Positions 80-14,466 of a stretch of 15,368 nt of DNA are shown one piece after another (positions within the stretch are counted from its first letter, which is position 1; the number at the start of each line of letters is the position of its first letter). The DNA is from Chitinophagaceae bacterium. GTDB taxonomy: Bacteria > Bacteroidota > Bacteroidia > Chitinophagales > Chitinophagaceae. The position numbers were made by a program, and so were the translations under genes. The stretch spans positions 18,858-34,225 of the forward strand of contig DMPB01000212.1 in assembly GCA_003456175.1 (NCBI GenBank), read 5' to 3'. The notes below the pieces were generated by a model, which was not told where the DNA came from, did not search any database, and worked only from the letters and a program-made list of their open reading frames with translations.

Positions 80-1528
80 TTGCGAAGTATTACTTCTATC
101 AAAGACTATCATATTGCATTACAAAACGGCCATACCACATGCGTAGCGGCCGTTTCGCATTTTATAGCTGCTATTCAAGAGAAAGCACATTTAAACGCAT
201 TTATTGAAGTATTCGAACACGATGCTTTAGCACAAGCTGCTACACTCGATGCACATATTGCAGATGGGAAACCGTTACTGCCGCTGCACGGGGTGGTAGT
301 TGGTATTAAGGATGTTATTTGTTACAAAGGGCATCGGGTAACTGCTGCATCTAAAATGTTGGCAGGCTTTGAGAGCGTGTATTCAGCTACAGCGGTAGAA
401 CGCTTAATTGCAGCAGGTGCTATTATTATTGGCCGTCAGAACTGCGACGAATTTGCGATGGGTAGTAGTAGTGAACACTCTGCTTATGGTAAAGTATTAA
501 ACGCTGCCGACGAAGCCAGAGTGCCTGGCGGAAGTAGCGGTGGTAGCGCCGTAGCGGTACAAGCTAACTTGTGTATGGTAAGCTTAGGCAGCGATACAGG
601 AGGTAGTGTTCGGCAGCCAGCCGACTTCTGTGGTATTGTTGGCGTAAAACCTAGTTATGGTCGTGTATCGCGTTATGGATTGATTGCTTATGCTAGCAGT
701 TTCGATCAAATTGGTGTATTTGCACATTATATCAACGATGCGGCATTGGTGTTGGCTACCATAGCAGGCCCCGATGGAAAAGATAGTACCGCCTTGCAAA
801 CCCATTTACCGCAAGGTATACATCATACAACGCCGCACCGCCCTATGCGGTTGGCTTATTTGAAAGAAGCATTAGAGCATGAGGGCTTAGATCGTAACAT
901 TAAAGCGGCTTTTGAGCAATTATTTCAGCAATTAAAAGCTGCAGGACATACTGTAACAGCGGTTGATTTTCCTTTGCTTACGCAAATGGTGCCTACGTAT
1001 TATGTGCTTACAACAGCTGAGGCAAGTAGTAATTTAAGTCGTTACGATGGAGTGAAGTTTGGCTTTGCAGCAAATGAGGTTACGCAACTGAACGATTTAT
1101 ACATACAATCGCGGACGGCAGGTTTTGGCAAAGAGGTGAAGCGCCGTATTATGCTGGGCAATTTTGTATTAAGTTCTGGCTATTACGATGCCTATTTTTC
1201 TAAGGCACAACAAGTAAGGCGTTTATTACAACAACAAACTCGCAACATATTAGCGTCGTATGATGCTATTATTAGTCCTACTGTGCCTGGCCCAGCTTGG
1301 CGGTTTGGTGAAAAAAGTACCAACCCAACGGCCATGTTCTTGGCCGATATTTTTACGGTGCACGCAAATCTAGTAGGAGCCCCTGCAATGTCTATCCCAG
1401 CTTTTCAGCATGATTTTGGCATGCCATTTGGTATACAAGTGTTGTCGAGCGAAGGTGCAGAGGCAACCATGTTTGAAGTAGCTCATGAGCTAGCAAGATT
1501 GGTAAAGCCTGGGTTAAGTATTAACTAG
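80..1528 (+). CDS. gatA: Asp-tRNA(Asn)/Glu-tRNA(Gln) amidotransferase subunit A
   Basis: GatA is the glutamine amidase of the cytosolic GatCAB complex. It releases ammonia that GatB uses to convert misacylated Glu-tRNA(Gln) or Asp-tRNA(Asn) to the correct amide. The amidase-signature family is clear. The Lys-Ser-Ser triad is K77 (GVVVGIKDVI), S152 in GGSSGGS and nucleophile S176 in SDTGGSVRQP. The length, 482 aa, is normal. The chosen start is TTG at 80, because no ATG or GTG lies between the in-frame stop at 47-49 and the conserved N-terminus (SIKDYH). A start a few codons later at ATT 89 would also fit the family but would be rare. gatB and gatC are not in the window, and Bacteroidota often scatter these genes. 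Residues 242-246 (HLPQG region) are encoded by a copy of the dispersed 13-mer (804-816). They fall in a loop that I believe is variable in the family. Confidence 0.96.
   Translation: MRSITSIKDYHIALQNGHTTCVAAVSHFIAAIQEKAHLNAFIEVFEHDALAQAATLDAHIADGKPLLPLHGVVVGIKDVICYKGHRVTAASKMLAGFESVYSATAVERLIAAGAIIIGRQNCDEFAMGSSSEHSAYGKVLNAADEARVPGGSSGGSAVAVQANLCMVSLGSDTGGSVRQPADFCGIVGVKPSYGRVSRYGLIAYASSFDQIGVFAHYINDAALVLATIAGPDGKDSTALQTHLPQGIHHTTPHRPMRLAYLKEALEHEGLDRNIKAAFEQLFQQLKAAGHTVTAVDFPLLTQMVPTYYVLTTAEASSNLSRYDGVKFGFAANEVTQLNDLYIQSRTAGFGKEVKRRIMLGNFVLSSGYYDAYFSKAQQVRRLLQQQTRNILASYDAIISPTVPGPAWRFGEKSTNPTAMFLADIFTVHANLVGAPAMSIPAFQHDFGMPFGIQVLSSEGAEATMFEVAHELARLVKPGLSIN
804..816 (+). repeat. Dispersed 13-mer copy inside gatA (ATTTACCGCAAGG)
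   Basis: This is identical over 13 bases to the intergenic copy at 4657-4669, and over 15 with flanks (cATTTACCGCAAGGt). In gatA it reads as codons for H-L-P-Q-G, just before the stretch IHHTTPHRP. It is one of two exact copies found inside coding sequence. Confidence 0.6.
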
Positions 1529-2768: not shown

Positions 2769-2811
2769 ATTTACCGTAAGGTATTATCAGAAAATATGCC
2801 TTACGGTAAAT
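2769..2811. repeat. Inverted pair of the dispersed 13-mer (ATTTACCGTAAGG / CCTTACGGTAAAT)
   Basis: Two exact copies of the 13-mer face each other at 2769-2781 and 2799-2811, with a 17-base loop. They form a perfect 13-bp stem at the convergent junction between the transglycosylase and the minus-strand membrane protein. The right arm overlaps the minus-strand gene: its last codons TTA CCG TAA (Leu-Pro-stop) lie in the repeat. There is no T-tract on the minus-strand side immediately after the stem, so a terminator role for the minus gene is possible but not shown. Confidence 0.85.
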
Positions 2812-3571
2812 AGGGGACTTTTTTTACGATAGAAGCAATATATGGATATGTTAAGCCTCCACTATCAATAATAATGATTACACTATCTCTCAGTTGTGGT
2901 GTTGTATAAGAAAAACTGAATTTTCTAACTTCTGTTTTGTGCGTAGGCGTAGCAATAACATATCGAGTTTTATGGCTGCCTTTATAGCTCGTGATAACTT
3001 CTGAAATGGTTCCGATTTGAGTGCTTTTACTTGTTGTTGATTGAAAGGTTTTTATTGCCAGTATATTAAAACATACTAGTGCACCTATTAAAAACGGAAA
3101 TACAATAAAATCTTGAGTTTTCTTAGATGTGCTTAGTTCGAGGAGGTAAAACTTGTTATATGTGTAAGCCGTTATAATGCCTGTTAATACACAAATACAA
3201 CCTACTTCCCAAGCAAATGCCTTAACATGCCATAGGCTGTACATGTATTTATCCCAATACCCGAATGTAAATACGTTACCTGCAAGTGTTATTACAGAAA
3301 GCGAATTAGTAAGCCATTTTTCTTGTTGAGAACTAATTTTTTTCCAATAGAAAATCTTGCCTTGTTCTAACCTTTTATCGAATTGTTTATTATAATGGGC
3401 TTCTAGGAAAATTTGTAGTAGGTAACAGCTTGTGAGTATAAGCAGGACGGCTATTATGAATAGAGGGAGGTTTATCCATCGATTATTTACATCCCATATA
3501 AGTGCTATGATACCAAATCCTAATACTATTGGTACACATATTAATAGCCATATCTTTCTTGTAGTTTTCAT
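2801..3571 (-). CDS. Unrecognised multi-spanning membrane protein with C-terminal beta-rich domain
   Basis: I do not recognise this 256 aa protein. Hydrophobic segments lie near residues 7-26, 33-57, 88-106, 113-137 and 154-173, separated by a charged loop at about 60-85 (KQFDKRLEQGKIFYWKK). After the last segment, residues 175-256 alternate polar and hydrophobic residues in a beta-like pattern (GTISEVI, RYVIATP, TEVRKFSF, DSVIIIIDSGG). This is loosely like the small extramembrane domain of DUF3592-type proteins, but that is only a resemblance. Four 60-base lines sampled by eye average about 35% G+C, lower than gatA. The gene lies 29 bp downstream of dusB on the same strand, so co-transcription is likely. 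Its stop codon comes from a repeat copy. The gene is probably real because the frame is long and has ordered membrane segments. Confidence 0.75.
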   Translation of the reverse strand: MKTTRKIWLLICVPIVLGFGIIALIWDVNNRWINLPLFIIAVLLILTSCYLLQIFLEAHYNKQFDKRLEQGKIFYWKKISSQQEKWLTNSLSVITLAGNVFTFGYWDKYMYSLWHVKAFAWEVGCICVLTGIITAYTYNKFYLLELSTSKKTQDFIVFPFLIGALVCFNILAIKTFQSTTSKSTQIGTISEVITSYKGSHKTRYVIATPTHKTEVRKFSFSYTTPQLRDSVIIIIDSGGLTYPYIASIVKKVPYLP

Positions 3572-3600
3572 GTACTCCGATAATTAAAGTATGGAGTCAT

Positions 3601-4641
3601 TTACCAAGCACATTCGCTGGTAGCGTTGCCTACAAAAGGAGGGATGCCACGTTCGGCAACGAACCCATCGTAACGTACAATTAACTCTTGTAACAAGGCT
3701 TCTATGGCTGCTACTTCGCGGAGGTTCACTAATTGGTTACGAAATTCTTTGATGTGCGGAAACCCTTTTAGGTAGTTGGTATAGTGCCTACGCATTTCTA
3801 AAATGCCCACTACTTCACCCTTCCAACGGATGCTTTCGTGCAGGTGCTGCAATATGGTAGCTACACGTTGCTGTACCGAAGGTGGTGAAGGTACTTCGCC
3901 GGTAGTGAGGTAGTGTTTGATTTCGTTGAAAATGAATGGGTAACCAATAGCGGCTCGGCCAATCATTACACCATCTACACCGTATCGGTTTTTATATTCT
4001 TTGGCTTTTTGTGGGCTATCTATATCGCCATTCCCAAAAATTGGGATTTGTATGCGAGGGTTGTTTTTAACGCTGGCAATGAGCGTCCAGTCGGCTTCGC
4101 CTTTATACATTTGGCAACGGGTACGGCCGTGTATACTTAATGCTTTAATGCCAACATCTTGCAGGCGTTCGGCCACTTCTTCAATATTTTTTGTGGCATC
4201 ATCCCAACCGAGGCGTGTTTTAACGGTAACGGGCTTATCGGTACTGTTCACAACTGCTTTGGTAAGTCGTACCATTAGGTCGATATCTTTCAGTACACCA
4301 GCGCCAGCACCTTTGGTTACTACTTTTTTAACGGGGCATCCAAAATTAATATCAACAATATCGGGGTTAACGGTGCTTACAATTTTTCCGCTAAGTGCCA
4401 TAGCTTCTTCATCGCCTCCAAAGATTTGAATACCAATGGGGCGTTCACTTTCGTAAATGTCGAGCTTCTGCCGGCTTTTAATAGCGTTGCGGATAAGTCC
4501 TTCGCTGCTAATAAACTCGGTAAACATTAGATCGGCACCATGTGTTTTGCATACTGCACGAAATGGCGGATCACTTACATCTTCCATGGGAGCAAGTAAT
4601 AGCGGGAAATCTGGTAATTGAACCGTGCCTATTTGTACCAT
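3601..4641 (-). CDS. dusB: tRNA-dihydrouridine synthase (DusB type)
   Basis: This is an FMN-dependent, NADPH-using enzyme that reduces specific uridines of tRNA D-loops to dihydrouridine in the cytosol. The 346 aa TIM-barrel protein opens with the typical LLAPMEDVSDPPFR (residues 15-28). It has the catalytic Cys102 in NFGCPVKKV, then VKTRLGWDD, the SIHGRTR phosphate/RNA-side motif and the FMN-phosphate motifs FGNGDI and GVMIGRAAIGYPFIF. The C-terminal helical tRNA-binding domain has the family motif HYTNYLKG. Length and motifs match DusB/Nifr3 proteins. It is divergent from the CPBP protease gene. Its leader contains a dispersed 13-mer copy 16-28 bases upstream of the ATG. TAAGTCTG, also in the leader, is one mismatch away from the TAnnTTTG box, so the promoter is uncertain. 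The minus-strand membrane protein follows 29 bp downstream. Confidence 0.95.
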   Translation of the reverse strand: MVQIGTVQLPDFPLLLAPMEDVSDPPFRAVCKTHGADLMFTEFISSEGLIRNAIKSRQKLDIYESERPIGIQIFGGDEEAMALSGKIVSTVNPDIVDINFGCPVKKVVTKGAGAGVLKDIDLMVRLTKAVVNSTDKPVTVKTRLGWDDATKNIEEVAERLQDVGIKALSIHGRTRCQMYKGEADWTLIASVKNNPRIQIPIFGNGDIDSPQKAKEYKNRYGVDGVMIGRAAIGYPFIFNEIKHYLTTGEVPSPPSVQQRVATILQHLHESIRWKGEVVGILEMRRHYTNYLKGFPHIKEFRNQLVNLREVAAIEALLQELIVRYDGFVAERGIPPFVGNATSECAW

Positions 4642-4656
4642 AATGTGCAGACTTAC

Positions 4657-4669
4657 ATTTACCGCAAGG
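4657..4669 (+). repeat. Dispersed 13-mer copy in the dusB/CPBP divergent spacer (ATTTACCGCAAGG)
   Basis: This is an exact 13-base match to the copy inside gatA, with T-to-C at position 10 of the commonest form. It lies 16 bases upstream of the dusB start codon on the opposite strand and 81 bases upstream of the CPBP start. It is a single copy with no inverted partner. Confidence 0.75.
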
Positions 4670-4750
4670 TGAGTATTATTGAACTTCTGTAAAATAACTT
4701 ACTTCGCAGCCAAATTAAAGTGCAAATTTACAGGGTTACAAGTTTGTATT

Positions 4751-5683
4751 ATGCAGCAACGCCATTCATTACATCCGGCATTACAGTGGGTGCTTTTAGT
4801 AGCAGCATGGGGAGGTAGTTTTTTATTGGGTAGTTTATTGATGTTAGTACTCTGGCCCATACTTACGGGAACAAGTATTATAAGCATGCGTTCTAACATG
4901 TTAGACCCTGCCTATGCCGATGCCGTGCGTTGGTTGAATGTGTTATCTACCATTGTTATTTTTATTGTGCCTGCACTTGTATATGCGAAAGTGGTGCGTA
5001 GCCAACAACCACTCAAACAATTACGTATTAATGGTAACTTGAATGTAAGGCAGGTGGCTCTAACAGCTTTAATTATGGGTGCTGCTTTAATGCTAAGCGG
5101 TTGGCTGGCCGAGGTGAATAAAGCTATACCTGTTGGTGAAGCACTTACCAAAGTGTTTCAATCGTTAGAAGATACCTATACAAGCCAGATTTTATTAATG
5201 GCTAACATGCAATCGTTGCAAGATTTTTTGATTGCTCTGGTTGTAATTGCCATAGCACCTGCCGTGGTAGAAGAACTATTTTTTAGAGGGGCCTTACAAA
5301 CGGCAACACAGCAATGGTTAAAACATCCGCTATCGGCGATACTCATTACTTCGTTTATGTTTAGTGTGATACACTTTTCGTGGTATGGTTTTTTGCCGCG
5401 TATGGCGTTGGGTATGGTACTAGGGTATATTTTTTATTACAGTCAAAACATTTGGTTACCCATCATTGGTCACTTCATTAACAATGCGTTGGCACTTACC
5501 CAACTGTATCTTTTGAGTAGTAAAGGTCAGTTAAGCAAGGCCGCCCTACAAGCCGAAATCAACACCACCATGCCTTTATGGATGGGGCTTATTGGCTTGT
5601 TTTTAGTAATTGTACTCCTACTGCAATTTCGTAAAGAAAGCTTGCTGCAATATGCACACCGAACCGATGATGATGATGTGTAA
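4751..5683 (+). CDS. CPBP-family intramembrane metalloprotease (CAAX protease / Abi family)
   Basis: This is a polytopic membrane protein of the CPBP/Rce1 superfamily, whose members are glutamate-dependent intramembrane proteases; the substrate cannot be told from sequence. Counting from the start used here (310 aa), motif 1 is E174-E175-x3-R179 (VEELFFRGALQ). Motif 2 is H208 in FSVIHFS, and motif 3 is H241-x3-N245 in GHFINNALAL. All active-site positions are therefore kept. About eight hydrophobic segments are visible, and the C-terminus is a cytosolic-looking acidic tail (TDDDDV). The ATG at 4751 is preferred to the in-frame ATG at 4679, because the extra 24 residues (KITYFAAKLKCKF...) are not protease-like. 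A partial -7 word (CAAGTTTG) ends only 4 bases before 4751, which would make the mRNA nearly leaderless. The gene converges on the GNAT-like gene. Confidence 0.88.
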   Translation: MQQRHSLHPALQWVLLVAAWGGSFLLGSLLMLVLWPILTGTSIISMRSNMLDPAYADAVRWLNVLSTIVIFIVPALVYAKVVRSQQPLKQLRINGNLNVRQVALTALIMGAALMLSGWLAEVNKAIPVGEALTKVFQSLEDTYTSQILLMANMQSLQDFLIALVVIAIAPAVVEELFFRGALQTATQQWLKHPLSAILITSFMFSVIHFSWYGFLPRMALGMVLGYIFYYSQNIWLPIIGHFINNALALTQLYLLSSKGQLSKAALQAEINTTMPLWMGLIGLFLVIVLLLQFRKESLLQYAHRTDDDDV

Positions 5684-5703
5684 TACAGCAGGCATTTGTA
5701 CAC

Positions 5704-5720
5704 TTTACCTTACGGTAAAT
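5704..5720. repeat. Dispersed 13-mer copy forming a small hairpin between convergent genes
   Basis: CCTTACGGTAAAT at 5708-5720 is an exact minus-strand copy of the 13-mer. With four extra bases on the left it gives TTTACC-TTAC-GGTAAA (5704-5719), a perfect 6-bp stem with a 4-base loop. It lies in the 47-bp gap between the CPBP stop (5681-5683) and the end of the GNAT-like gene (5731). It could act as a weak bidirectional terminator. No other terminator is visible for either gene here. Confidence 0.7.
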
Positions 5721-5730
5721 GTTTTCTTGC

Positions 5731-6906
5731 TTATTTATACTCCATGATTGGATGGCGTTCGAAGGGATGCTTTTGTTCATCAAAAATATAACGATAGGTT
5801 ACCATGCGTCGGCTTTGCTTGCCTCCCAAGTTTTTATAGATATTATGCATTTTTGGGTTCCAATCTGCCGCCCAGCCCATTTCGTAATCTGTATATCGGC
5901 CATTGCCTTGAATTATGAAGGCCGCTTCTTGAATTAAGAAACTATCAACGCCCAGGGCTTGAAATTTAGGTACTACGCCAAATGCTAATCCGGTAGCAAT
6001 TTTGCAAGTACCCGTATACTTCATGTACAATAAATGCAGCTTTTGTAACAAGCCCATTTTGCCATTGAAATGCTTGAAATATTGGTTGATATCAGGTATG
6101 TTAATAAACATGGCAATAGGATCTTCTTTGTAATAGGCGAACCATACCAGGGTTTCATCCATAATAGGTTTCATTTTGCCAAAGAGCTTCATTACCTGGT
6201 CGGGTGTAATTTCTTTACCCTCGCCATGTTGTGCCCACGCTGCGTTGTATACTGTTGCAAAATCATGTGCATGTTTTGCCAGATTTTTAAGCGAAATATG
6301 CTTGGCTGAATATTCGGGTTTAGCTGCAAATTTTGCATGGCGTTCTTGAAAGCGAGGTGGTAAAGGCTCGCTCATTATCATGCGAAAAAAATATTGATTG
6401 TAGTAGTTTTTAAAACCGTAGGTTTCAAACAAATGTTGGTAATAAGGCGGGTTGTAGCTCATGCCATATACGGGTTCACGGTCAAAACCCTCTACCATTA
6501 AGCCCCAGTTTTTATCGCGGTCGCCAAAGTTAATGTTGCCATCCATGGCCTCCATGCCTTCGGCAACTAGCCAAGCCTTAGCTGTATCGAGTAATTGATT
6601 AGCAGCCGCCTGGTTATTAATACAATCGAAATAGCCCACACCACCTACTGGATAATCGGTGCCTTTGTTAATGTATTTACTATTGGTGAATGCTGCTACC
6701 CGACCAATGTATTGGCCTTGATTGTTTTTGAGCAACCAACGCTTGGCAGTACCATATTTGAAGAGTTTGTTTTTTGCAGGGTCAAACACATCGTTCACTT
6801 CATTATCGAGTGGACGAATATAATATGGGTTGCCTCGGTGCACCATTACATTCACCTCTAGAAAAGCTTTGGCGGTAGCGGGTGTATTTACTTCAACAAT
6901 ATGCAT
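5731..6906 (-). CDS. GNAT-fold acyltransferase-like protein, function unassigned
   Basis: This 391 aa soluble protein resembles a large family common in Bacteroidota and Proteobacteria, usually annotated only as hypothetical or GNAT-like. Visible family marks are HRGNPYYIRPLDNEVNDVFDP near residues 24-44 and KYGTAKRWLLKNNQGQYIGRVAAF, which looks like a GNAT beta strand. A central GNINFGDRDKNWGLMVEGFD block is followed by YNPPYYQHLFETYGFKNYY. A second GNAT-like half covers about 200-370, with FQALGVDSFLIQEAAFII taking the place of the acyl-CoA-binding segment. So it is probably a tandem GNAT protein. Acyl-CoA binding is inferred and the substrate is unknown. It starts 32 bp downstream of cysS on the same strand, so the two are probably co-transcribed. 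It ends 10 bases from the repeat hairpin that separates it from the CPBP gene. Confidence 0.75.
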   Translation of the reverse strand: MHIVEVNTPATAKAFLEVNVMVHRGNPYYIRPLDNEVNDVFDPAKNKLFKYGTAKRWLLKNNQGQYIGRVAAFTNSKYINKGTDYPVGGVGYFDCINNQAAANQLLDTAKAWLVAEGMEAMDGNINFGDRDKNWGLMVEGFDREPVYGMSYNPPYYQHLFETYGFKNYYNQYFFRMIMSEPLPPRFQERHAKFAAKPEYSAKHISLKNLAKHAHDFATVYNAAWAQHGEGKEITPDQVMKLFGKMKPIMDETLVWFAYYKEDPIAMFINIPDINQYFKHFNGKMGLLQKLHLLYMKYTGTCKIATGLAFGVVPKFQALGVDSFLIQEAAFIIQGNGRYTDYEMGWAADWNPKMHNIYKNLGGKQSRRMVTYRYIFDEQKHPFERHPIMEYK

Positions 6907-6938
6907 GGTTGTAGTAGTTCTAATGATTTCGTAACATA

Positions 6939-8468
6939 TTAATTTAAAATGGTGTACGAAGTGGTGCCATCTTTCGCATCTTTCAATTGAATGCCAACAG
7001 CTTCTAACGATTTGCGAATAGTATCGCTGGTGGCATAATCTTTATTGGCTTTAGCTTGCTTACGCAAATCAATAAGTATATCTAACACACCATCGAGCTT
7101 GCCATCGTTATTGCCTGCAGCACTTATTGGTTGTAAGCCGAAAATAGTTTCAACGAATAAATGCATTTGCTGCTGTAGTTGTTGCAATGTATTGCTGGCT
7201 AAAGCATTCATTGCAATATGACCATCTTTAATACCGTTGATAATAGGTACTAACTCAAACATATTGGCTAATACTTTGGCTGTATTTAAATCGTCGTTCA
7301 TACTTTCTGCAAAGCCTTGTACTAGTTGCTGCACTTTACTATCTAAAGCATTGTCGGCGGCTGCGTTCGCATTTGCCGTAAGGCTCATATTTTTTAAATA
7401 TTGATATGCTTCTAGCAGCCTTTTCATACCTTTTTCGGCTGCTTGTAATGCTTCGTTACTAAAATCGAGTGTGCTACGATAGTGTGTTTGTAGTATGAAA
7501 AAGCGCACCGTCATAGGGTGGTAGGCTTGTGTTAGTAAGTGATGCGAACCACTAAATAGCTCGCTTAACTTAATAACGTTGTTATAGCTCTTACCCATTT
7601 TGCGGCCGTTAATGGTAATCATATTGTTGTGCAGCCAGAAACGAGCATTGAGCTTGCCATGATTGCATACGGCACTTTGTGCAATTTCACACTCGTGATG
7701 TGGAAACTGCAAATCCATACCGCCACCATGTATATCAAATTGTTCGCCCAAGTATTTTTTACTCATAGCGCTACACTCAATATGCCATCCCGGAAAGCCT
7801 TCGCCCCAGGGGCTTGCCCAACGCATAATATGTTCTGGTGGGGCTTTTTTCCAAAGTGCGAAGTCGGCTTTGTTGCGTTTTTCTTCTTGCCCGTCGAGTT
7901 CACGGGTGGTTTCTAACAACTCATCAAGGTTGCGGCCGCTTAGCATACCATATGGTAAGCCTTGTGCCGCAAATACTTCGTGATATTTTGCAACATCAAA
8001 GTATACACTGCCATTTACTTCGTAAGCAAAGCCATCGGCAATGATTTTTTTGATCATTTCAATTTGTTCTACAATATGTCCTGTAGCGGTGGGTTCAATA
8101 CTAGGCGGCAGGTTGTTGAACTGTTGCATAGCCCAATGGTACATGTTGGTGTATTTCTGCACCAACTCCATAGGCTCAAGTTTTTCAAGCACCGCCTTAG
8201 AACTGATTTTATCTTCCGCGGCACGGCCTTCTTCTTCAAAATGGCCAGCATCGGTAATGTTACGTACGTAACGAACTTTATAGCCTAAATGCATCAAATA
8301 TCGATATACAATATCGAATGTGATGAAAGGGCGTGCATGGCCTAAATGACTTTCGCCACTTACAGTTGGGCCGCACACATACATGCCCACATAGGGGTAT
8401 TTATAAGGTTCGAATACTTCTTTTTTACGCGTAAGCGAATTATATACTTGTAATGATGCTGCACTCAT
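6939..8468 (-). CDS. cysS: Cysteinyl-tRNA synthetase
   Basis: CysS is the class I synthetase that attaches cysteine to tRNA(Cys) in the cytosol. The 509 aa sequence has the HIGH-type motif HLGH (41-44). The zinc ligands expected from the E. coli enzyme are present: C32 in VCGPTV, C232 in [10 protein letters not shown]257 and E261 in [11 protein letters not shown]. The KMSKS loop reads KMGKS (290-294), a conservative variant. The anticodon-binding DALR-type helical domain follows (about 330-470), then a short C-terminal domain. It is about 10-20 residues longer than many homologues. Extra Ala/Asn-rich sequence sits at about 372-385 ([14 protein letters not shown]), where a copy of the dispersed 13-mer is found on the coding strand. 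A good TAnnTTTG box lies 24 bases upstream of the start. The GNAT-like gene follows 32 bp downstream. Confidence 0.97.
7371..7383 (+). repeat. Dispersed 13-mer copy inside cysS (ATTTGCCGTAAGG)
   Basis: The 15 bases cATTTGCCGTAAGGc are identical to the intergenic copy at 8571-8583 on the other strand. On the cysS coding strand the repeat reads as codons for S-L-T-A-N at about residues 372-376. This is a low-complexity Ala/Asn stretch of the helical domain, where extra sequence should be tolerated. Confidence 0.6.
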
Positions 8469-8491
8469 GAACTTAATACAATTAAAGGTGG

Positions 8492-8499
8492 CAAAGATA
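8492..8499 (-). promoter_or_regulatory. Promoter -7 element of cysS (TATCTTTG)
   Basis: On the minus strand TATCTTTG matches the Bacteroidota -7 consensus TAnnTTTG exactly and ends 23 bases before the cysS ATG. A start about 7 bases downstream would give a leader of roughly 16 bases. No convincing TTTG -33 element is visible at the usual spacing. A short inverted repeat GTAAC-CC-GTTAC lies further upstream at 8540-8551. Confidence 0.6.
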
Positions 8500-8570
8500 A
8501 CTGACCATGCTACAATGAATAATAGTTAATGTGCAAAAGGTAACCCGTTACACTTGTTAAATATGCTGCG

Positions 8571-8583
8571 CCTTACGGCAAAT
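8571..8583 (-). repeat. Dispersed 13-mer copy in the EEP/cysS spacer (ATTTGCCGTAAGG)
   Basis: The plus strand reads CCTTACGGCAAAT. This is the same variant as the copy inside cysS, identical over 15 bases including flanks. It lies between the EEP stop and the cysS promoter, both on the minus strand. Next to it TAGCC (8587-8591) and GGCTA (8602-8606) could pair as a weak 5-bp stem after the EEP gene. Confidence 0.75.
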
Positions 8584-8607
8584 GAGTAGCCGCATGCAAA
8601 TGGCTAT

Positions 8608-9747
8608 TTATGGTTTGATGAAAAGATCGGCAACCAGCATTACATGGTCGCTTAGATCTTCATCTTTCATTTGAAATTTTTGAACGATGAAATTGGTATC
8701 GGGCATGATATAATCGATGCGAAGGGTAGGTGCCAAATCGTTGTAGGTACGGCCTAAGCCGAAGCCATTCACTAAAAAAGCATCTTGCCTATAACCTTTC
8801 ACTTTACGGTAGGTGTAGCTGGTTGGCACATCGTTATAATCGCCGGTAATACAGTGTATATAAGGACAAGTATCTAGCACTGCACGAACCAAATCGGCCT
8901 GAATACCTCGTTTTTGAAAAGCGGTTTTCATTTTTCGTGCAATGCCTTTGCTGGCTTCTACACTCGCTTCGTCGGTGAGTTTTATTTTTTCGATATCAAC
9001 ATAGTCACGTTCTGCGAATTTGAACGATTGCATGTGTGTGGTATGAATACGTACTGTATCGCCTTGCGGTAAAAGCACATCAATGAAAATGACACTTTCA
9101 GGGTTCTTACCTCTAAAAGGAATTTTACCACTTGCTAAGATGGGGTACTTAGAGAATAAAATACAACCCGATGCATAGTTGCCGCTATCGCGAGTGAAAT
9201 CTTTCGAAAAGTGATAGTAGGGGTAGGTGTCAGTAAATAGTCCTAAGTTATCAGCTCTGCTGCCAGGTTCGTTGTAACGATGGTTAAACTCTTGCAAGCA
9301 AAGTATTTGAGCACCTGTTTCTTTTAGTGCACGGGCAATTTCGGTACGGGCAAGTTGCTTGCGTTCTTTGTTTTTGCTGATTCCGGTAAGGCTATGCACA
9401 TTCCAGTGTGCTACACGCAGGCTAGGTTTTTGCTTGCTTTTAGGACTACTAGCGGTAAAGCCCCAAGTGTTGCGTATTTGTGCATAACCAATCACCAAAC
9501 TTAGCAGCGGTAATAGCACCCAAATGGGTTTGATGGTAAGCCAAAAGAAAACTGAGAAAACTAATAACGTGGTTAAATAAGGCAATGCTAATGCCAGCAT
9601 ACCAAATACCCAGCCAATACTTGATTGCGGTGGAATGAACGGGCTGGCGCAACTGGCCAAAAAAGCCAATGCCACCAATAAGTTGATGGTAATGAGTAAG
9701 CGTTTAATCCATTTCCTAAGCCAAAGTCCAATACTATTTCCAGCCAT
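8608..9747 (-). CDS. Membrane-anchored endonuclease/exonuclease/phosphatase-family protein
   Basis: This is a metal-dependent phosphodiesterase or phosphatase of the EEP (DNase I-like) fold, tethered to the membrane. Three hydrophobic segments lie at about 15-33, 41-63 and 65-90, and the catalytic domain follows from about 108. All fold-specific active residues are present: N116 (HWNVHS), E153 (LCLQEF), H238 (TTHMQS), D303 and N305 (GDYNDVP), D345 (RIDYIM), and D367-H368 (LSDHVM). An active enzyme is therefore likely. The substrate is unknown: nucleic acid, phosphoinositide-like lipid and sphingomyelin-type head groups are all cleaved by relatives. The 379 aa length is usual for the Bacteroidota membrane form. 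The ATG at 9747 is only 4 bases from a -7-like word, suggesting a leaderless mRNA. The ABC exporter gene is divergent and cysS lies 139 bp downstream. Confidence 0.9.
   Translation of the reverse strand: MAGNSIGLWLRKWIKRLLITINLLVALAFLASCASPFIPPQSSIGWVFGMLALALPYLTTLLVFSVFFWLTIKPIWVLLPLLSLVIGYAQIRNTWGFTASSPKSKQKPSLRVAHWNVHSLTGISKNKERKQLARTEIARALKETGAQILCLQEFNHRYNEPGSRADNLGLFTDTYPYYHFSKDFTRDSGNYASGCILFSKYPILASGKIPFRGKNPESVIFIDVLLPQGDTVRIHTTHMQSFKFAERDYVDIEKIKLTDEASVEASKGIARKMKTAFQKRGIQADLVRAVLDTCPYIHCITGDYNDVPTSYTYRKVKGYRQDAFLVNGFGLGRTYNDLAPTLRIDYIMPDTNFIVQKFQMKDEDLSDHVMLVADLFIKP
9062..9074 (-). repeat. Degenerate 13-mer copy inside the EEP gene (12 of 13)
   Basis: The plus strand reads CCTTGCGGTAAAA, one mismatch from the reverse complement of the 4657-4669 copy. 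On the coding strand it reads as L-L-P-Q-G, the same frame as the copy in gatA (L-P-Q-G). One mismatch and a common codon string make chance more likely than for the other copies. Confidence 0.35.
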
Positions 9748-9751
9748 ACTG

Positions 9752-9759
9752 TAAATATA
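9752..9759 (-). promoter_or_regulatory. Candidate -7 element of the EEP gene (TATATTTA)
   Basis: On the minus strand TATATTTA differs from TAnnTTTG only in the last base and stands 4 bases before the ATG. If it is used, transcription would begin at or just inside the start codon, giving a leaderless message. Confidence 0.4.
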
Positions 9760-9803
9760 AGGGCTTGCCGAAAATACCCGTGTTCGTGCTTGCCGCTTAT
9801 AGC

Positions 9804-9816
9804 ATTTACCGTAAGG
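9804..9816 (+). repeat. Dispersed 13-mer copy in the EEP/ABC divergent spacer (ATTTACCGTAAGG)
   Basis: This is an exact copy of the commonest form, with flanks cATTTACCGTAAGGt. It ends 17 bases before the ABC -7 box, so it covers the -33 region where a TTTG box would be expected. Other copies do not keep this spacing, so a direct promoter role is not a general property. Confidence 0.75.
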
Positions 9817-9833
9817 TTAGCAGGCCTTATTAT

Positions 9834-11774: not shown

Positions 11775-13153
<1,379 letters not shown>

Positions 13154-13161
13154 TAAGCACC

Positions 13162-13208
13162 AACAGTTTCAGCCTCTACGCACAGGGCAGCGAGGCTGAA
13201 ATTGTTTT
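13162..13208 (+). terminator. Strong hairpin after atpE: possible partial terminator or mRNA stabiliser
   Basis: AACAGTTTCAGCCTC (13162-13176) pairs with GAGGCTGAAATTGTT (13192-13206) around a 15-base loop. This makes 15 pairs counting one G-U. It starts 8 bases after the atpE stop. The T-rich 3' side (TTGTTTTA) is short and interrupted, so full termination is doubtful. Partial termination or protection of the atpBE message from decay would both give more c subunit than downstream subunits. Confidence 0.6.
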
Positions 13209-13275
13209 ACTGCTTCGCAGTAACATATCTTGGTTGTCAACTTTGTGCGAAACTCAACATTGGTTGCGTCGCACA
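13207..13275 (+). other. Two further hairpins in the atpE-atpF spacer
   Basis: Directly after the first hairpin, TTACTGC-TTC-GCAGTAA (13207-13223) forms a perfect 7-bp stem with a 3-base loop. A third stem pairs TGTGCGA (13244-13250) with TCGCACA (13269-13275) across 18 bases. No open reading frame of interest and no tRNA-like fold was seen. The rest of the spacer up to the promoter box is unremarkable. Confidence 0.5.
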
Positions 13276-13276
13276 C
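13253..13276 (-). repeat. Degenerate 24-base repeat, copy 1 (atpE-atpF spacer)
   Basis: On the minus strand this region reads GTGTGCGACGCAACC and onward to GTTGAG. It aligns with the plus-strand stretch 14498-14521 (GTGAGTGACACAACG to CTGAGG), with 18 of 24 positions matching and one gap. Both copies lie in atp spacers, in opposite orientations. Copies elsewhere in the genome cannot be judged here. Confidence 0.35.
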
Positions 13277-13305
13277 TTCAACTGAGGTACAAACACGAGC
13301 TAAAT

Positions 13306-13336
13306 TTTAGAAAGTAAGCATAAGCTGCTAGTTTTG
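13306..13336 (+). promoter_or_regulatory. Internal promoter before atpF (TTTA - 19 bp - TAGTTTTG)
   Basis: TAGTTTTG (13329-13336) matches TAnnTTTG exactly. TTTA at 13306-13309, one base from the -33 consensus TTTG, stands 19 bases upstream, a usual spacing for Bacteroidota sigma-A promoters. The box ends 26 bases before the atpF ATG, predicting a leader of about 19 bases. Together with the hairpins after atpE, this suggests that atpF and later genes can be transcribed independently. Confidence 0.55.
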
Positions 13337-13362
13337 CAGCCGCTTTCAGAAAATACAACGAT

Positions 13363-13872
13363 ATGTTTTTAGAAGTTAATCCTCTCGTATTACCTGAGCT
13401 AGGTTTGGTTATTTGGAGTACAATTGCCTTCCTAGTATTACTATTTGTGCTTACCAAGTTTGCTTGGAAGCCCATTATGGCAGCTGTAAAAGAGCGTGAA
13501 ACTGGTATTGAAGAAGCCTTAGCCAAGGCCGAGAAAATGAAGGCCGAGATGGCTCAGTTACAAAACGAGAACGAAGCTTTATTAGCAAAAGCTCGTGAAG
13601 AACGTGCCACTCTAATCAAAGAAGCGAAAGAAACAGCCGATAAAATGGTGGCAGCTGCGCAAGAAAAAGCTAAAGCAGAATACGATCGTATTGTTGCCGA
13701 TGCACAAGCAGCTATTCATCAGCAAAAGAACCAAGCACTTACAGAGGTTAAAAACCAAGTTGGTAGCATGGTAATTGAAGTGGCCGAAAAAGTATTGCGT
13801 AAGCAGTTAGCCGATAAGCCACAACAAGAAGCGTACATTCAAGAATTAGTGAACGGCGTTAAGCTGAATTAA
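13363..13872 (+). CDS. atpF: F1Fo ATP synthase subunit b
   Basis: Subunit b is the peripheral stalk that links Fo to the delta subunit on top of F1 and stops the alpha3beta3 head from rotating. The 169 aa protein has the normal design. One N-terminal membrane helix lies at about 12-31 (LGLVIWSTIAFLVLLFVL), followed by the conserved FAWKPIMAAVKERE. A long charged coiled coil (Ala/Lys/Glu-rich, about 45-150) leads to a C-terminal VAEKVLRKQL segment that contacts subunit delta. It starts after the long spacer from atpE and ends 30 bp before atpH. No change from the family pattern was seen. Confidence 0.96.
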   Translation: MFLEVNPLVLPELGLVIWSTIAFLVLLFVLTKFAWKPIMAAVKERETGIEEALAKAEKMKAEMAQLQNENEALLAKAREERATLIKEAKETADKMVAAAQEKAKAEYDRIVADAQAAIHQQKNQALTEVKNQVGSMVIEVAEKVLRKQLADKPQQEAYIQELVNGVKLN

Positions 13873-13902
13873 TTGGCATAAAAACTAACACATCGTATTA
13901 TT

Positions 13903-14466
13903 ATGACGAACCCTCGTTTAGCAGCACGTTATGCCAAAAGCTTGATTGACCTTTCACAAGAGCAAGGTAAGCTTGAGGAAGTGTATGCCGATATGCGTTA
14001 CATGCAAGCTTTGGCAAAAGCTAGTAAAGAGCTTGTGGCTTTGTTAAAAAGTCCCATCGTTAAAGGCGATAAAAAGCTTGCTGTTATTGAAAGTTTAACC
14101 AATGGGAAGGTTGGTGCACTTACAAGTGGTTTCAATCGCTTGCTGGTTAATAAAGGTAGGGAAAACGATCTTGTAGCTATTGTAGATGCATTCATCGATC
14201 AGTACAATACACTAAAAGATATTCATCGCGTTAAGTTTACCACAGCTGTTGCGGTGAGTGATACTTTGAAGCAAAGTATTGTTAACACGGTAAAAGCGCA
14301 AACTGGCTTTACGCATATTGAGTTAGAAGCTAAAGTTGATGCTAATATTATTGGTGGTTTTGTACTAGAGTTCGACAATAATTTGGTTGATGCATCTGTG
14401 GCAAGAGATTTAAGAGATTTAAAAGCACAATTTTCGAAAAACTGGTACGTACCTAATATGCGATAG
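13903..14466 (+). CDS. atpH: F1Fo ATP synthase subunit delta (OSCP)
   Basis: Delta joins the peripheral stalk to the N-termini of the alpha subunits. The 187 aa sequence opens with the family start MTNPRLAARYAKSLIDLSQEQGKLEEVYADM and has the helical N-terminal domain to about residue 105 (FNRLLVNKGRENDL). The C-terminal part contains the characteristic IIGGFVLEFDNNLVDASVARDLRDL, close to the family motif GG...DDKVID.S. The length is typical. It starts 30 bp after atpF and is followed by a 111-bp spacer with a hairpin before atpA. Confidence 0.95.
   Translation: MTNPRLAARYAKSLIDLSQEQGKLEEVYADMRYMQALAKASKELVALLKSPIVKGDKKLAVIESLTNGKVGALTSGFNRLLVNKGRENDLVAIVDAFIDQYNTLKDIHRVKFTTAVAVSDTLKQSIVNTVKAQTGFTHIELEAKVDANIIGGFVLEFDNNLVDASVARDLRDLKAQFSKNWYVPNMR

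Follow-up and report, generated by a model that had tools for sequence, protein, structure and literature searches.

Why should one short DNA word recur many times within a single contig, both between genes and inside them? The question is raised by a stretch of 15,368 nucleotides from a Chitinophagaceae bacterium (contig DMPB01000212.1, positions 18,858 to 34,225), which as a whole is called the window below. A reading made from the sequence alone had noticed eight copies of a 13-nucleotide word and had compared it with the DNA uptake sequence (DUS) of Neisseria and the uptake signal sequence (USS) of Haemophilus. A pattern search of the window recovered all eight as exact matches, identical in position and strand, together with a ninth, intragenic copy having one mismatch at 9062-9074 (-). 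These nine matches at up to one mismatch compare with 0.16 obtained from dinucleotide shuffles. The analysis described here strongly supports the existence of a genome-wide, lineage-specific DNA word that is defined by hairpin pairing and has dialects in two families.

Abundance and layout of the word

The assembly containing the window, designated G000, comprises 3,122,328 bases in 213 contigs and is 81% complete. It holds 1,591 exact copies of ATTTRCCGYAAGG (794 forward and 797 reverse), about one per 2 kb, and no match to the reversed control pattern, a scale far beyond that claimed from the window. The possibility that copies are few elsewhere in the genome, or that they share long flanks, is excluded by this count and by flank information that falls to about zero beyond about 3 bases from the word.

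The layout was analyzed in 18 stretches of G000 totalling 261,562 bases, the 1.1-kb overlap between the window and L031 being counted once. At least one copy is present in each of the 18. Perfect copies number 129, and a further 48, 34 and 245 sites carry one, two and three changes, respectively; third-order Markov expectations for zero to three mismatches are 0, 1.7, 28 and 249. Thirty of the 48 one-change copies differ at the first base. Copies of the word are thus nearly perfect or absent. The C seen ahead of the word in the window also proved to be conserved, as it precedes 82% of 128 copies.

Seventy of the 129 copies were found in spacers, 52 within genes and seven near a stretch end. 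Coding sequence makes up 83% of the sampled bases according to a simple gene caller, so that 70 of 122 placed copies fall in about 17% of the bases (p 2e-24). Close pairs are mostly inverted (14 of 15) and mostly in spacers (13 of 15), and in the longer sampled contigs the two strands carry similar numbers of copies. Word-poor stretches of more than 7 kb were seen three times (9.9, 7.9 and 7.1 kb). The 7.9-kb one, at 6762-14682 of L033 (G000 contig C6), has a phage integrase gene (12794-14062) next to its end and may be an acquired island; this is what one would expect to see if recently acquired DNA were still free of the word.

To follow the origin of intragenic copies, 200 distinct sites were considered. 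A coding homologue in relatives was available for 48; 15 of these lay at an alignment edge and were dropped, leaving 33, many of them aligned at low identity (mean 39%). At the word, 27 of the 33 alignments are ungapped, four have a gap in the homologue and two in the protein of G000 itself. This indicates that intragenic copies arose mostly through base changes in place.

Base pairing within the word and in its relatives

The word follows the plan TTT, stem RCC, loop GYAA, stem GGY, and is therefore a mini-hairpin. The sequence-only reading had described its core, TTRCCGYAA, as a dyad. This symmetry did not hold up: the variable positions of the dyad are complementary in 116 of 175 cases against 121.8 expected, and 9,647 of 10,000 shuffles score as high. 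The outer pair of the hairpin gave a different result, R at position 4 being complementary to the base after GG in 124 of 175 cases; shuffling predicts 92.1, and 0 of 10,000 shuffles are as high.

None of 293 other genomes of the family that were searched exceeds 7 copies, and a genome of the same genus, G041, has only 2. Among 396 genomes of the order (G000 included), searched with one mismatch allowed, five further word-positive genomes were identified, all in another family, f18. Their counts per strand were 651/647 in G505 (control 30/34), 564/583 in G577 (33/43), 493/485 in G523 (40/26), 468/450 in G400 (42/32) and 263/254 in G310 (33/40). Stems in f18 are built on the same plan, namely TTT-GCC-GAAA-GGC, TTT-GGC-GAAA-GCC, TTT-GC-GCAA-GC and TTT-CC-GAAA-GG, and all four pair types are present in G400 plus G523 and in G505 plus G310. 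One fixed core per species is nearly what is found in G000, where the word accounts for 124 of 182 distinct hairpins; G400, G505 and G577 have no single core sequence.

With the closing C-G pair held fixed, the next, inner pair was scored. It is complementary in 197 of 205 hairpins in G000, 229 of 261 in G400 (85 after shuffling), 96 of 106 in G523 (42), 53 of 53 in G505 (24) and 38 of 46 in G577 (18), and in each of these genomes 0 of 10,000 shuffles were as high. In G310 the count is 10 of 11 (4 after shuffling), with 4 of 10,000 shuffles as high. The same test detected no pairing excess in slid controls or in word-negative genomes. When hairpin variants were counted, neither AAA in place of TTT nor GNGA loops were enriched; the prefix ATT is also elevated in G000 (35), probably due to shifted frames of TTT hairpins. 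In general form, the element shown by these data has TTT ahead of a mini-hairpin, whose stem of 2-3 bp is closed by C-G and whose loop is GNAA.

Such pairing bears on the idea that a regulator, nucleoid protein or methyltransferase recognises the word in double-stranded form. A site of this type would be in keeping with the large number of copies in G000 and their almost invariant sequence, and very many near-identical copies within one genome are a feature shared with the highly iterated palindrome HIP1, which is one fixed double-strand palindrome according to the cited part of PMC4390886. Here, by contrast, the stem sequence varies and pairing is kept: there is covariation across the hairpin and none across the dyad. 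The two halves of the stem covary in G000 and are swapped as complementary pairs in f18, which is unexpected if each is read independently in double-stranded form, and a double-stranded site is quite improbable. As pairing rather than sequence is kept, we infer that the word is likely to be read as single-stranded DNA.

Conservation was followed in one species pair, G400 and G523, aligned over 33.9 kb at 80% identity; distinct hairpins were counted, so that 2- and 3-bp frames of one hairpin were not counted twice. Ten of 15 G400 hairpins are identical in G523, one is kept with changes and four are lost through at least two substitutions. Control 11-mers beginning with TTT are identical in 492 of 2,773 cases (17.7%). 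At one kept site a compensatory double change is seen (CC/GG against GC/GC), and at one locus the two genomes carry hairpins on opposite strands.

Orientation relative to genes was counted in G000, G400, G505 and G577, leaving out G523 and G310. In G000, 15 coding copies are on the same strand as the gene and 37 on the opposite one (37/52, p 0.003). G400 has 212 distinct hairpins in 258.9 kb, 23 in spacers and 189 within genes, the latter divided 71 to 118 (118/189, p 0.0008), and its strands are balanced within each long contig. Same-strand and opposite-strand numbers are 27 and 18 in G505 and 8 and 10 in G577. The opposite-strand preference of coding copies in G000 and G400, which is reversed in G505, is possibly a codon effect. 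Since sense and antisense copies are mixed in G000, G505 and G577 as they are in G400, the hairpin probably acts at the DNA level. Action in RNA (a processing site or a protein-binding site, for instance) could be imagined because a GNAA loop closed by C-G is within the stable GNRA tetraloop class. The absence of a consistent sense orientation in the four genomes and the lack of GNGA enrichment both speak against RNA, and we regard it as an unlikely site of action.

The abundance of inverted spacer pairs raises the further possibility of mobile repeats resembling repetitive extragenic palindromes (REP) and spread by a REP-associated (RAYT, Y1) transposase; the sequence-only reading had mentioned REP debris. 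REP elements have a short tag followed by a hairpin and form inverted pairs in spacers, as in BIME (bacterial interspersed mosaic elements), and the word shares these traits. Matches to Y1_Tnp occur in three of the six word-positive genomes (two in G400, one each in G523 and G577). They are lacking in G000, G505 and G310, and several word-negative genomes have them. The stems are of 2-3 bp, the flanks are not conserved, and the 27 ungapped coding alignments point to substitution rather than insertion. Nor is the word extragenic, 52 of 122 placed copies in G000 and 189 of 212 hairpins in G400 being coding. We consequently disfavour this origin, to which we give only a very slight chance.

Across the phylum, a sample of 395 genomes, not including G400, G505, G523 and G577, showed only G000 and G310 far above control for TTTNNCGNAAG, all others reaching about twofold at most. 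A search of GTDB r220 and IMG/VR for the inverted-pair pattern, which covers paired copies only and may omit G000 itself, gave 0 matches. A de novo search of 20 other genera (380 kb; one stretch of 3.4 kb) detected no dispersed 10-mer with more than 6 copies after low-complexity filtering; its power is moderate, the word-bearing stretches themselves yielding 4-9 and one of them, L033, no signal. Some fainter signals were observed. In one distant family, f37, TTTNNCGNAAG is at 0.9-2.1 times the reversed control, and above 1.4 in 14 of 25 genomes, which could be composition or a faint relative. A weak excess of word or hairpin in G430, G530, G572, G034, L323 and L314 possibly represents decaying or young dialects. 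Four TTT-GNAA hairpins are present in 9.7 kb of L226 (Saprospiraceae HH_bin16) and four in 12.5 kb of L271 (Cryomorphaceae T3Sed10_241), with 0-1 in controls; both lineages are candidate further bearers of the word.

A putative self-recognition tag and its candidate reader

The explanation that we prefer, tentatively, is a putative self-recognition tag in natural transformation, analogous to DUS and USS. Hairpin-bearing DNA would be preferentially taken up or processed, and biased transfer would spread point mutations, leading to accumulation of word copies. The parallel drawn in the sequence-only reading stands as regards copy number, density, presence on both strands, intragenic copies with a spacer excess, inverted spacer pairs, near-perfect copies and lineage dialects. 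In Haemophilus influenzae, 65% of USSs are in open reading frames (ORFs) compared with about 86% coding DNA (cited part of PMC2346458). The parallel fails in that the element is not a plain double-stranded word; it is defined by stem pairing and not by one sequence. It also fails as regards the pilus: no match to the type IV pilin domain N_methyl was found in G000 (81% complete) or in G041, and 8 of 14 control genomes do match. Because the pilus feature was looked for in G000 and not found, we do not file the word under DUS or USS.

A more detailed form of this explanation, in which the tag is coded by structure, appears doubtful. Here kin DNA would be recognised through a single-stranded mini-hairpin (TTT, a 2-3 bp stem, GNAA) whose stem letters make up the dialect, and a lipoprotein with oligonucleotide-binding (OB) folds would feed an outer-membrane barrel at the cell surface with no pilus involved. 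Should the hairpin be an uptake tag, no earlier uptake word would have been defined through base pairing instead of sequence. That would explain how such words could escape k-mer counting in other species, and would connect a widespread uptake-type system with self-recognition. To our knowledge no uptake word has been described in Bacteroidota in the openly licensed literature, beyond inconclusive k-mer counts in Riemerella columbina, and an uptake tag would be the first as far as that literature shows. If the hairpin is not an uptake tag, its conservation at about one per kb in coding DNA is still an unexplained constraint on genomes.

The candidate reader would be a surface system similar to that of Riemerella, consisting of the barrel and a DUF5689 lipoprotein with tandem OB folds. 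Two neighbouring proteins are needed for transformation of R. anatipestifer, one of them a predicted outer-membrane protein that carries a domain frequently seen in TonB-dependent receptors, the other a DUF5689/DUF5017 protein; in the cited sections of PMC8459023 the authors report no similarity of these proteins to known machinery. Riemerella TonB mutants show reduced transformation (cited section of PMC8383284). The Riemerella system, which further includes ComEC, DprA and ComF, resembles the present case in that a barrel with a DUF5689 neighbour is widespread in the order and ComEC is present in G000 (contig C187, E 3.6e-60), as it is in word-negative G041. It differs in lacking a described uptake word, as far as the literature consulted goes; R. 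columbina is reported to favour its own DNA, yet the k-mers listed for it are A/T-rich (cited part of PMC7965970). In G000 the start of the barrel (residues 1-284) is at the end of contig C4, where the gene runs off the contig and leaves its partner out of view. In each of the five word-positive f18 genomes the barrel is followed by a DUF5689-type neighbour.

The barrel matched in 22 of another 24 genomes from the order irrespective of whether they carry the word, two of the matches being weak, and the presence of the barrel was rejected as the switch for the word. G041 has the pair of barrel and DUF5689 lipoprotein; in its locus L071 3-5349 (G041 contig C9) these are accompanied by a divergent Exo_endo_phos_3 nuclease. 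Loss of a barrel-adjacent Exo_endo_phos nuclease was likewise rejected: it is absent beside the barrel in 6 of 6 word-positive genomes, the rest of those genomes not having been searched, and also at 17 of the remaining 82 loci that could be assessed. It is retained in G430 and G530, which are weakly positive. In this survey 88 of 100 loci were assessable, some genomes being present twice (e.g. L206, L325), and the pattern is a weak one found post hoc.

In 80 loci, 77 partner lipoproteins were found. Thirty-four were aligned, none of them from a genome known to be word-positive; scanning gave DUF5689 in 34 of 34, DUF5017 in 14 and a nucleic-acid OB fold weakly in three (best E 8.4e-4). The lipoprotein that was modelled (pLDDT 77.5, pTM 0.58, poor past residue 375) shows successive OB folds. 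Its Foldseek matches include HIN-dsDNA, BRCA2-ssDNA, Teb1, RPA and MCM10 domains and tRNA synthetases; as the OB folds of HIN, tRNA synthetase and RPA score closely, no single relative is claimed. It is plausible from the model that the DUF5689 lipoprotein is a nucleic-acid receptor, from which reading of the hairpin does not follow.

A number of observations weigh against a self-recognition tag read by this system. The word is lacking in G041, of the same genus, and DUS and USS words are usually shared by close relatives; known uptake words, moreover, are read as double strands by pilins. No DUF5689 match was found in the G000 assembly, which is 81% complete and in which the barrel gene is cut by the contig end. 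Barrel and lipoprotein are equally common in word-negative relatives, so that having them does not account for the word. The lipoprotein that was modelled is encoded at a locus, L248, containing 0 hairpins. Its top Foldseek match is a HIN-dsDNA complex, with low TM-scores over the whole length; given this match and OB folds that also match tRNA synthetases, the fold does not show specificity for single strands. NCBIfam lipo_M949_1556, which we take to be named after a Riemerella locus tag, scores below cut-off (136.9 of 475 bits), as does the barrel plug in Pfam, and the link to Riemerella comes from domains and neighbourhood, not from compared Riemerella sequences or sequence orthology. Finally, of 18 distinct G523 hairpins only 8 are identical in G400, with 3 kept in changed form, 6 lost and 1 gapped.

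The same properties could be explained by a signal for some other single-strand process, such as Chi-like control of recombination, restart of replication, or a repair or defence protein that binds hairpins and leaves self DNA alone. This is a possibility to be taken seriously, even if on balance we do not expect it. Dependence on pairing, presence on both strands and in coding DNA, and conservation at orthologous sites would all fit. Its patchy distribution, in G000 yet not in G041, is unlike that of core replication and recombination signals. Chi-like signals tend to follow replication, and the strands here are roughly balanced in longer contigs.

Site-specific single-strand GIY-YIG nucleases (Ssn-like) are known, and a target of such an enzyme would account both for single-strand reading and for a link to transformation. 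Word-positive G505 does have a small GIY-YIG frame of 135 amino acids. G000, G310, G400, G523 and G577 have only two matches each, in frames of 478-637 amino acids except for one open frame of 261 (G000 contig C94), and small frames occur in word-negative G003, G007, G323, G335 and G358. Such a target is disfavoured as the least probable of the explanations considered.

Copies in the window

Complete hairpins TTT-ACC-GCAA-GGT are present at 804-817 (+), within the amidase gene 80-1528, and at 4657-4670 (+) in a spacer. The form TTT-ACC-GTAA-GGT occupies three spacer sites: 2769-2782 (+), 5707-5720 (-), where ORFs converge from either side, and 9804-9817 (+). At 7371-7384 (+), within the class I tRNA synthetase gene 6939-8468 (-), and at 8570-8583 (-), in a spacer, the outer pair is G:C instead (TTT-GCC-GTAA-GGC). 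It is a non-complementary A:C in the copy at 2798-2811 (-) and in the one-mismatch copy TTTTACCGCAAGG at 9061-9074 (-), the latter within the Exo_endo_phos gene 8608-9747 (-).

Six of the copies had been placed between genes. This holds for five; that at 2799-2811 overlaps the last bases of an ORF at 2801-3571 (-), if the ORF is real, and as counted over 2798-2811 (-) provides its stop codon. The protein of this ORF has no Pfam match.

Relatives with a 2-bp stem were observed at 976-986 (-) within the amidase gene and 7058-7068 (-) within the tRNA synthetase gene (both TTT-GC-GTAA-GC), and at 4447-4457 (-) within the Dus gene (TTT-AC-GAAA-GT). A further candidate, TTT-TC-GAAA-GA at 9200-9210 (-) within the Exo_endo_phos gene, is possibly due to chance.

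Single hairpins are weak as DNA, with -1.3 to -2.5 kcal/mol for the three copies folded. The copies at 2769-2782 and 2798-2811 form the first and second arms of an inverted pair, and the region 2766-2814 containing them folds strongly as DNA (-12.3 kcal/mol, z -7.0).

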